Shown in pieces: positions 24,472-33,013 of a stretch of 37,054 nucleotides of DNA. The notes under the pieces were generated by a model. The model made no database searches. It was not told the origin of the DNA and saw only the letters and a list, made by a program, of their open reading frames with translations. The translations under genes and the position numbers were made by a program. How positions within the stretch are numbered: the stretch's first letter is position 1; every line of letters starts with the position of its first letter. This DNA comes from Candidatus Aenigmatarchaeota archaeon (GTDB taxonomy: Archaea; Aenigmatarchaeota; Aenigmatarchaeia; PWEA01): positions 1 through 37,054 of the forward strand of contig PWHK01000004.1 of assembly GCA_003554845.1 (NCBI GenBank). The letters run 5' to 3'.

Positions 24472-24583
24472 GGGCCGGTAGTCTAGTGGCTATGACGCCA
24501 CCCTTACAGTACGAAACGGGATTTCAATTTCCGTTGACGTATCGGAAAGGTGGAGATCGCAAGTTCGAATCTTGCTCGGCCCA
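24472..24583 (+). tRNA. tRNA-Val(TAC) with about 39-nt intron at canonical 37/38 (about 24509-24547)
   Basis: GGGCCGG/TCGGCCC acceptor; CCACC/GGTGG stem; loop CTTACA|intron|A; inner intron helix TACG/CGTA; second helix AACGG/CCGTT. Confidence 0.9.
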
Positions 24584-24817: not shown

Positions 24818-24933
24818 GCTCCTGTAGTCTAGTCCGGCCAAGGATACTGGCCTTTCGATTTCCGAAAGGATTGAGCCATTTCGGCGATGAAAGAAGAAAG
24901 CCAGTGACCCGGGTTCGAATCCCGGCGGGAGCA
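24818..24933 (+). tRNA. tRNA-Glu(TTC) with 41-nt canonical 37/38 intron (24858-24898)
   Basis: CTGGC-CTTTCG|intron|A-GCCAG; BHB central helix CTTT/GAAG, 3-nt bulges CGA and AAA, inner helix TTTC/GAAA. Confidence 0.93.
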
Positions 24934-24941
24934 TTCCCCAT

Positions 24942-25047
24942 GCGGGGGTACCCAAGCGGTCAAAGGGGCTAGATTCCTGTAAAAGGAAAGCCAAGCTTAG
25001 GACCTAGTGGTTTAGTACCTTCGCAGGTTCGAATCCTGCCCCCCGCA
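24942..25047 (+). tRNA. tRNA-Leu(TAG) with 22-nt non-canonical intron at about 30/31 (24973-24994)
   Basis: Removing the insert restores CTAGG-CTTAGGA-CCTAG; BHB central helix GGCT/AGCC with bulges AGA and AAG, inner helix TTCCT/AGGAA. Confidence 0.88.
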
Positions 25048-26425: not shown

Positions 26426-27592
26426 TCATTTATTGAGCATCCGTATACCCAACTCGTCGGATACACCTTCGTTTTTTTGTTTTGGGTTTTTAGAGGAATC
26501 TTCCTTGGACCTCGGGCCCATTATGTAGGGCGACTTCACTCCTGTAATTATTGCAATTACTTGCATGCTTCCTTCGTACTCTGGAACAACTCTTGCACCC
26601 CAAATCACCTGTGCCTGTGGGTCCAGTTGCTTGGATATCGCTTCACCTATCTCGTTTATCTCATCAAGTTTGAGATCCTCGCCTCCGATGACCTGGATTA
26701 TTGCTCCATCTGCTCCTTCGTACTTCATCTCAAGAAGAGGATGGTTCATTGCTTTCTGTGTTGCTTCTTCTGCTCTGCTACTGGAATCTGCTTCTCCTAT
26801 ACCTATAGAAGCAACTCCACCGTCCTTCATTATGGTCTTGACATCTGCGTAGTCCAGGTTTACAAGAGAAGGCTGAGTTATAGTTTCGCTGATACCCTTT
26901 ATCATAGTCGATATCAGTTCATCAGCAACTGCAAAGGCCTGTTTTACAGGTAGATCACCTGCATAGCTCAAAAGTTTCTGGTTCTCTATTGCTATTACTG
27001 TGTCGGTTACTTCTCTCATCTTCTTCAAACCTTCCTCGGCCTTTACTATCCGTGTACCTTCCATTTTGAAAGGCATCGTAACTGCGGCCAACACTATTGC
27101 TCCTTCGTTGTTTGCCATTTCTGCTACGACAGGTGCTGCTCCTGTGCCTGTACCTCCACCAAGACCGCAAGTTATAAAGACCATATCTGCGTCCTTCAAC
27201 TCTTCGCGTATTTCTCTCTGTGACTCTTCGGCAGACTTCTTACCTACCTTGGGTTTACCGCCGGCACCTAATCCTTTAGTAGTCTCTCGGCCTATGAGCA
27301 TCTTTTTATCAGCATTTGAAGCACCTAAATGCGAAGCATCTGTGTTAAGTGCCAAGGTTTCGGCACCATCTATTCCCATATCTGTGAGTGTGGTAATAGT
27401 ATTGTTTCCTGCTCCACCTACACCTACTACCTTTATTTGAGCCTGATTGATATCTATATCAAACTCTTCCTCCACGTCCCTGTGGTCTATGCTGTTTGCC
27501 CCCCTGGGTAAATTGTGCACAGATTCTCTGTTTTTTTCTTTTTGTGTTTTTTCGAAGTTTCTTTCAAAAGCGTTTTGAATTACGGAATCCAT
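26426..27592 (-). CDS. ftsZ: Cell division protein FtsZ
   Basis: KVVGVGGAGNNTI, GLGGGTGTGAAPVVAEMA, TMPFKMEG; C-terminal DELGIRML conserved-tail-like peptide; AGGAGGTTG SD. Confidence 0.98.
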   Translation of the reverse strand: MDSVIQNAFERNFEKTQKEKNRESVHNLPRGANSIDHRDVEEEFDIDINQAQIKVVGVGGAGNNTITTLTDMGIDGAETLALNTDASHLGASNADKKMLIGRETTKGLGAGGKPKVGKKSAEESQREIREELKDADMVFITCGLGGGTGTGAAPVVAEMANNEGAIVLAAVTMPFKMEGTRIVKAEEGLKKMREVTDTVIAIENQKLLSYAGDLPVKQAFAVADELISTMIKGISETITQPSLVNLDYADVKTIMKDGGVASIGIGEADSSSRAEEATQKAMNHPLLEMKYEGADGAIIQVIGGEDLKLDEINEIGEAISKQLDPQAQVIWGARVVPEYEGSMQVIAIITGVKSPYIMGPRSKEDSSKNPKQKNEGVSDELGIRMLNK

Positions 27593-27654
27593 TTTTTGTT
27601 CAACCTCCTTTCTTATGTTTTTTGAAATATGTTTTCCAATATCGAAATCTTTTT

Positions 27655-27794
27655 AAGGTTTCAAATGAAACCTTCTATTGCCCAAGAAATAGTTCCAGAT
27701 AAGTCTAATTAACACAAAAAGTCTGGTCTGCAAACTTGCCCAAGTTTGCACGAGTACGATACCCAGTTTCCAACCGATGCCCAGTCGGATGGAA
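27655..27794. promoter_or_regulatory. Four tandem hairpins in the ftsZ / nucleotidyltransferase divergent intergenic region, candidate structured ftsZ leader or ncRNA
   Basis: 27655-27674 (8 bp), 27675-27692 (5 bp), 27729-27750 (9 bp), 27768-27794 (5+4 bp); GCCC lies in the loops of the last three. Confidence 0.55.
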
Positions 27795-27939
27795 CGTTAG
27801 TATATTCCAGTACTACTTCTACTATTTTGGGTTATCCTTTATAAAACTTTCCCTTGACATCAAATAAATCAACTGTACAACATATATATTCAAAACTATA
27901 TACGTTAGATTTTAAAGCAACAAAAGGTATCCTTTGACC

Positions 27940-28899
27940 ATGAAGGCTTTAATTCTAGCAGGAGGCCATGCTACTAGACTATGGCCCATAACAAAAAACA
28001 GAGCAAAACCTCTTCTCCCGCTTGCAGGAAAACCCATTCTTTCACATATACTTGACGAACTGGAAAGCATGGACCATGTAGATAGAATATATGTAACCAC
28101 AAACAAAAAGTTCGAGGACGAGTTCAGACGGTTTCTCGGCAGAAGAAGTGAAAAGAACGAACTCATAATCGAGGACCAGGAGTCCGAAGACGAAAAGTAC
28201 GGAGCACTGGGTGGCATAATAAACGTAATCAAAAACAAAGGCATCGACGACTACATAGTAATAGGAGGAGACAACTACTACAGCTTCAGTATAGAGGACT
28301 TTATTCTTTTCTCAAAAAAGAAGAACTCGATTACAAACGCATGCTACGAGCTGGATAATATGGAAGAAGCAAAAAACTACGGAATAGTAGAATTAGGCGA
28401 CGACAAAACTATAGAGGGTTTCCAGGAAAAGCCGGAGAACCCGGGATCAAAAACTGCATCTACGGCGTGCTACTTCTTTCCAGAACAAAGCATGGAGGTT
28501 TTCAACAGGTATGTAGAATATTGGGAGGGTAAGGTTCCAAGGAGCCAGTATCTCGACTCACCAGGAAGGCTGCTCCAGTGGCTTGTCGAGAGGTACACCT
28601 GCCATGCATATCCATTCACAGGAAAATGGATGGATATAGGAACGAGAGAGGGTTACCTAAGAGCAAACAAACAGCTGGAAAAGGACAACAGGATAGAGGG
28701 ATCCATAAGAGATTCTGAGATAGGAGATAATGTAACACTCATGGAGGGTTCCGAAGTAGAGAATTCGGAAATAGAAAACTGCATAGTCATGGAGAAGAGT
28801 AAAATAAAGGACTGTATAGTGAAAAACGCCTTGGTGGGAAGAAATACTACTATAGAAAATAAGGACCTGAGAAACGGTATAGTTAAAAGTACAGATTAG
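27940..28899 (+). CDS. Sugar-1-phosphate nucleotidyltransferase with C-terminal hexapeptide-repeat-like region
   Basis: MKALILAGGHATRLWPITKNRAKPLLPLAGKPIL; C-terminal IEGSIRDSEIGDNVTLMEGSEVENSEIENCIVMEKSKIKDCIV. Confidence 0.92.
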   Translation: MKALILAGGHATRLWPITKNRAKPLLPLAGKPILSHILDELESMDHVDRIYVTTNKKFEDEFRRFLGRRSEKNELIIEDQESEDEKYGALGGIINVIKNKGIDDYIVIGGDNYYSFSIEDFILFSKKKNSITNACYELDNMEEAKNYGIVELGDDKTIEGFQEKPENPGSKTASTACYFFPEQSMEVFNRYVEYWEGKVPRSQYLDSPGRLLQWLVERYTCHAYPFTGKWMDIGTREGYLRANKQLEKDNRIEGSIRDSEIGDNVTLMEGSEVENSEIENCIVMEKSKIKDCIVKNALVGRNTTIENKDLRNGIVKSTD

Positions 28900-32827: not shown

Positions 32828-32916
32828 GCTCCCGTAGTCTAGTCCGGCCAAAGTTTTGCGGCTATGGATACGAGCCTCTCGAGCTCGGGACCCGGGTTCG
32901 AATCCCGGCGGGAGCA
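32828..32916 (+). tRNA. tRNA-Glu(CTC) with 14-nt non-canonical D-arm intron at about 21/22 (32852-32865); CCA follows
   Basis: GCTCCCG/CGGGAGC acceptor, CGAGC-CTCTCGA-GCTCG anticodon arm. Exon context GGCCAA|GGATAC is identical to intact tRNA-Glu(TTC); insert AGTTTTGCGGCTAT. Confidence 0.87.
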
Positions 32917-33013
32917 CCATTTTCACCACATACCGACAGGTAAATGCAGTAAGATAAGAAAAAGAAAATGTAAATAAGAAATTAAACCTGTTTTAAAAAG
33001 AAAGCTGAACTCT

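Follow-up and report, generated by a model that had tools for sequence, protein, structure and literature searches.

Several described systems control ftsZ from its upstream region or make use of repeated RNA loops. The bacterial sponge RNAs CsrB/CsrC and RsmY/RsmZ contain several hairpins with the same G-rich loop motif, which is widely conserved as GGA and can also be used linearly, and they act in trans on CsrA. In E. coli, the upstream region of ftsZ gives rise to the cis-antisense RNA StfZ, with possible antisense control of ftsZ (PMC9628754). In haloarchaea, upstream control has been described for ftsZ2, which is regulated together with cell division by the DNA-binding protein CdrS (PMC7439475, PMC8406309). 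Furthermore, symmetric BRE-TATA-BRE promoters generate antisense RNA in Pyrococcus furiosus (PMC6640164).

The locus analyzed here lies in a stretch of 37,054 nt (the window) from a genome of Candidatus Aenigmatarchaeota (G000; 633 kb, 20 contigs, about 95% complete). The nearest named relatives, with FtsZ identities of 90–94%, are Candidatus Aenigmatarchaeota MAGs. The ftsZ gene is of the FtsZ1 type (26426–27592, minus strand; Pfam Tubulin 2.2e-46, FtsZ_C 2.7e-31), has homologues with the array described below in the class, and is preceded by the Shine-Dalgarno motif GGAGG (27604–27608, minus strand), which is invariant in four genomes. A spacer of 341 nt, inside which the array is situated, separates ftsZ from an NTP-transferase (nucleotidyltransferase) gene on the plus strand (27934–28899). 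Elsewhere in the window, Rfam detected three tRNA genes of 106–116 nt that were missed by ARAGORN (24472–24583, 24818–24933, and 24942–25047) and that probably contain introns; an ARAGORN call at 32828–32919, with a two-base anticodon left undetermined, possibly represents another intron-containing tRNA.

A first-pass annotation had noticed four inverted repeats upstream of ftsZ, and all four were found where it had placed them (27655–27674, 27675–27692, 27729–27750, and 27768–27794). Three of the four indeed have GCCC on the plus strand, i.e., GGGC in the ftsZ sense, in their loops, and TTGCCCAAG occurs exactly twice, at 27678 and 27736. Read on the minus strand, hairpin 1 (AAGGTTTC/GAAACCTT, 27655–27674) is the one without the motif in its loop, and it adjoins and partly overlaps a promoter element, P2. 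Tag copy 1 (TTGGGCA) lies between the arms CTATT/AATAG of the second repeat (27675–27692), tag copy 2 forms the loop of hairpin 3 (TGCAAACTT-GGGC-AAGTTTGCA, 27729–27750), and tag copy 4 that of hairpin 4 (TTCCA-t-CCGA-CTGGGCA-TCGG-t-TGGAA, 27768–27794). Tag copy 3 is linear (27760–27765) and reads TGGGTA here (TACCCA on the plus strand) and TGGGCA (TGCCCA) in all three relatives from the same genus. When positions 27593–27850 were shuffled 5000 times with dinucleotide frequencies kept, three non-overlapping hairpins with a common loop 4-mer arose 15 times (P≈0.003); among 280-nt windows drawn at random from this genome, 0.5% have them. The 9-bp hairpin at 27729–27750 is the only GGGC hairpin of at least 8 bp in the 633-kb genome, and nowhere else in it do three TGGGCA motifs occur on the same strand within 150 nt. 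The 5-mer count was not significant for this genome alone because one of the four tag copies has degenerated. The single-sequence pattern is thus significant yet modest, and the comparison across genomes is decisive.

In the three same-genus relatives, the DNA of the spacer is 79–84% identical. One of them (G002) has lost the NTP-transferase gene, so that gatC directly adjoins the spacer, and the array is intact; therefore, the array travels with ftsZ. The stem of hairpin 1 is invariant in the four genomes, with a variable loop, and hairpin 4 is almost invariant. In hairpin 3, a compensatory change replaces one A-U pair with G-C in G004, and the outermost pair is lost in three of the four genomes. 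The stem of the second repeat is broken in two of the four genomes and cannot count as a kept hairpin, while its loop, TTGCCCAAGAA, including the tag, is invariant. One compensatory pair in four sequences is weak covariation at the genus level, and the class-wide flank-swap test described below was required. The repeated identical loops of the first-pass annotation held as repeats of a tag, but not as a constant set of four hairpins: the constant feature is a short, lineage-specific tag that is displayed in loops or linearly.

The class-wide sample comprised 102 upstream regions of ftsZ1, with 20 upstream regions of ftsZ2 as control. The copies within a genome have a common tag, which differs between lineages (GGGCA, GGGCU, GGACA, UUGGGACUAA, UUGGGGGA, UCUCGU, and GGAAC). 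Within the same order, G009 has four copies of GGGCA and G010 has six, while G007 has five of GGGC and G013 has three of TGGGCG. Other lineages have GGGCT (G056, G066, G064, G079, and G017), GGACA/GGACT (G059, G049, G016, G029, G113, and G097), TTGGGACTAA (G020, G032, and G074), TTGGGGGA or TTGGGGA (families f14, f18, and f7), TCTCGT (G058, with seven CTCGT copies, G081, and G083), or GGAAC (G026, G068, G069, and G072). The number of copies per array is three to four here and reaches seven elsewhere. Two further elements were observed in these regions. A second conserved hairpin, TGTGC-loop-GCACA, is present about 35–90 nt before ftsZ, in its 5′-UTR, at five loci (L063, L066, L068, L083, and L085), and several families have a GTGTTAANTATCT-like element, located inside the array or 3′ of it: G024 (L053), G046 (L045), G017 (L043), and the window (27700–27716).

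The class-wide repeats clearly exceeded expectation, although related genomes are not independent, so that there were fewer events in evolution than the counts suggest. Of the 102 ftsZ1 regions, 30 have four or more copies of one GC-rich 5-mer, versus 1.3% of shuffles. At least three hairpins with a common loop 4-mer were found in 15 of the 102 regions, versus 0.34% of shuffles, and in none of the 20 ftsZ2 regions. In regions with at least three copies, 219 copies are on one strand and 5 on the other. For the flank-swap test, the 3′ flanks were exchanged among 225 tag copies in 300 swaps. With their own flanks, 53 of the 225 copies form stems of at least 6 bp, versus a mean of 3.3 and a maximum of 9 after swapping, so the stems complement only their own partner; the tags had been picked by inspection, which affects the number of copies but not the contrast between own and swapped flanks. 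The stem mismatches (4 GT versus 5 AC) are too few to fix the RNA strand.

Tags on one strand, placed in loops or linearly and framed by interchangeable, self-complementary stems, have the look of a single-stranded RNA recognition array. Its promoter would be P1, a BRE-like GGGAAAG followed by the TATA element TTTTATAAAG (27837–27853, minus strand), which is kept in the four genomes. The TATA-like element proposed earlier (CTTTATAAAA) is present, one base away from its claimed position, at 27837–27846. The predicted start is near 27815 on the minus strand, and in most lineages a sense TATA is found about 27–60 nt before the first tag, very clearly in family f3 (CGAAAACTTTATAAATA). Just upstream of P1, GTGACATTTGTATTCT is conserved in this family (L031, L032, and L033) as a possible transcription-factor site, and in the window TTGACATCAAATAAATCAACTGTAYAA (27854–27885), kept in all four same-genus genomes including G002 without the NTP-transferase gene, is a possible regulator site of P1.

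We consider it an even bet that the region is a cis-acting leader RNA of ftsZ that presents several single-stranded recognition tags. RNA polymerase would start at P1 (about 27815, minus strand) and produce a transcript in the ftsZ sense whose leader would extend about 220 nt ahead of the start codon and expose three to four copies of UUGGGCA as single strands, in hairpin loops or linearly. Multivalent binding of the tag by a dedicated partner, either a protein that binds RNA or an RNA complementary to the tag, would alter ftsZ output, e.g., by acting on translation, on the stability of the mRNA, or on how far transcription from P1 reads through into ftsZ. The comparison of genomes establishes the array, the uniform strand of its tags, the covarying stems, the linkage to ftsZ, and the sequence elements P1 and P2, and from these we infer transcription of the array, a partner, and a regulatory effect. 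Candidates for the partner are a protein whose specificity shifts, an RNA dedicated to the task, and the predicted antisense RNA from P2. Several findings count against this reading. A few genomes have a C-rich tag in the sense strand (G024, G045/G147, and G067), so the partner would need to be rebuilt there; G067 alone combines GCCCC(C) tags with a GGGGGC ribosome-binding site. Some arrays are held in long hairpins, whereas those of G056, G066, and G030 are linear, and in about 45% of the regions no 5-mer occurs even three times. We rejected base pairing between the tag and the ftsZ ORF, in which the complement of the tag is not enriched.

A further point against a cis-acting leader is the element P2 (27627–27656), which is strongly conserved between the array and ftsZ and resembles ftsZ's own promoter, so the array RNA need not join ftsZ. 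The pattern T(W)2-3AA-N2-5-TTTCG is found in 71 of the 102 ftsZ1 regions, versus 3.2 expected, and in none of the 20 ftsZ2 regions. The BRE-TATA element (27643–27656) reads CGAAAtcTTTTTAA on the plus strand, into the array, and TTAAAAAgaTTTCG, the ftsZ TATA, in the ftsZ sense. The initially melted/initiator stretch AAAACATAT (27627–27635, minus strand; consensus AAAATATAT) is an information peak in the 71 aligned genomes, at +8 to +16 and at a fixed distance from the P2 TATA; it is unforced because it lies outside the alignment anchor. Toward ftsZ, this spacing is normal for archaea, and in the opposite direction the TATA is directly adjoined by a BRE, CGAAA. Scans for sigma-70 promoters and intrinsic terminators found nothing. 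By these elements, P2 is apparently a bidirectional promoter, from which a second ftsZ transcript would start and probably also an antisense RNA that covers the array. A short ftsZ leader may therefore exist as well, and both strands of the array may give rise to RNA. Of the readings in the first-pass annotation, a binding array, or a structured leader or ncRNA, of about 220 nt in the ftsZ sense gains support from P1, strand uniformity, covarying stems, and fixed linkage to ftsZ, but has to be amended for P2; the leader might be autoregulatory, as that annotation proposed.

P2 also opens a different explanation, to which we give a minor share of our confidence: the sense leader from P1 and the antisense RNA from P2 might form a pair whose complementary GGGC and GCCC loops start pairing and thereby tune ftsZ. 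The tag would be free to drift by lineage because both RNA strands come from the same DNA, and differing arrays at paralogous genes would be accounted for as well. Conservation is highest for the antisense BRE of P2, in which CGAAA directly adjoins TTTTWAA (71 of 102); a sense BRE is present in only 23 of the 71 genomes, and both the promoters of P. furiosus and StfZ offer precedents. Many loops start with UUGG, CUGG, or CUCG; such YUNR loops are of the type used by antisense RNAs. However, pairing in register would not need identical loops across the array, and the authors of the P. furiosus study take the antisense RNAs that bidirectional promoters produce to be without function (PMC6640164).

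The main rival outside RNA is control at the DNA level, as by CdrS. The tags would be sites of a transcription factor, e.g., of the ribbon-helix-helix type, that acts on P1 and P2, and the inverted repeats would be DNA sites. Such an operator would agree with the regulation of haloarchaeal ftsZ2 by CdrS, with the nearly palindromic form of some tags (TTGGGCAA), with a first tag that in many lineages lies close to where P1 would start, and with the difference in tag orientation between the sister genomes G066 and G067. The strand bias of 219 to 5 speaks against it, as do the irregular spacing (about 6–75 nt) and the arms, which differ among copies and yet are complementary, the opposite of a conserved operator. 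We therefore regard an operator array as unlikely.

The genomic context bears on whether the array belongs to ftsZ at all. In the lineages with TTGGGCA, whole-genome scans placed nearly all paired matches upstream of ftsZ. The ftsZ loci of Woesearchaeota, Nanoarchaeota, and other DPANN archaea (assigned by record name) have two to three copies of TTGGCG(A) and hairpins, for example AAGTTTTTTGGCGAAAACTT, and in scans of ten such genomes 10 of 13 paired TTGGCGA matches were at ftsZ. The gene on the far side varies (nucleotidyltransferase, permease-like, glutamine-synthetase-like, or methyltransferase-like; outside the window, these names come from visual inspection of ORF translations). By this comparison, the array stays with ftsZ while the other neighbors change, and the constant linkage argues for action in cis. 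In genomes with two ftsZ1 paralogues, the second copy has a different array or none, which counts against the leader reading and favors a locus-specific partner. In G014, G033, and G038 (L288–L291, L299, and L300), one paralogue has a GGACA array and the other a different hairpin or none. An independent, trans-acting ncRNA that merely adjoins ftsZ, either a sponge like CsrB/RsmZ or an sRNA with multiple seeds, would agree with an array that is flanked by two promoter elements and has several identical loops. This is improbable given the linkage across the class and other DPANN archaea, and given that the tag is neither enriched nor depleted genome-wide in G000; with the array unique in that genome, a common genome-wide regulon was ruled out. 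It is scarcely credible that the hairpins arose by chance in a spacer rich in A+T, or that they are iteron-like repeats of a replication origin: the single-window P value is only 0.003 and iterons also change by lineage, but the shared-loop hairpins, the 5-mer repeats, and the flank swap all speak against them, and an origin was ruled out, as Orc1/Cdc6 is far from ftsZ in single-contig chromosomes and no GC-skew extremum was found at ftsZ in G009 (about half of the genome sampled).

For the cis-acting leader RNA, the lineages together suggest a bolder extension, which we put forward tentatively and with less than even confidence: a DPANN-wide ftsZ RNA element whose repeated single-stranded tag changes in step with its partner. 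Each lineage would then use a private tag, with a constant architecture and the same target gene. If true, a regulatory-RNA recognition code would have turned over repeatedly. The identical tag within each genome makes division control testable in DPANN archaea, which are mostly uncultured and often host-dependent, and one tag per lineage provides many natural experiments for a partner search by co-evolution.

Comparison with the known systems places the array as follows. At the gathering threshold, Rfam 15 detected only tRNAs in the window and at 20 related loci, and its sub-threshold matches were unrelated. Searches of the open-access literature alone, without subscription papers and preprints, yielded no account of an element of this kind and are hence no proof of novelty. 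The conserved, double-stranded half-sites of an operator of the CdrS/RHH type were not found, as the arms vary and remain complementary and strand uniformity is strict; moreover, CdrS acts at ftsZ2, whereas the array is at ftsZ1. An adjoining orc1/cdc6 gene together with a GC-skew extremum, as at ORB/iteron origins, was also not found. With StfZ, the array shares the origin of an RNA upstream of ftsZ and a possible antisense control, here by an RNA that is predicted from the conserved antisense BRE-TATA at P2; the abstract on StfZ reports no array of repeated loops. P2 has the same symmetric layout as the bidirectional promoters of P. furiosus, but its antisense BRE is better conserved than its sense BRE. 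The closest likeness is to CsrB/CsrC and RsmY/RsmZ, as multiple loops with the same motif occur in one stretch and the motif also appears linearly. In contrast to these sponges, the array is archaeal and lies upstream of ftsZ, and in place of a GGA motif common to many species it has a motif that changes by lineage (GGGCA, GGGCU, GGACA, UCUCGU, and others). Thus, the array would fall into the known kind of multi-loop regulatory RNAs, with a mechanism that is proposed here, and the row of tags upstream of ftsZ points to a previously undescribed element of division control in DPANN archaea.
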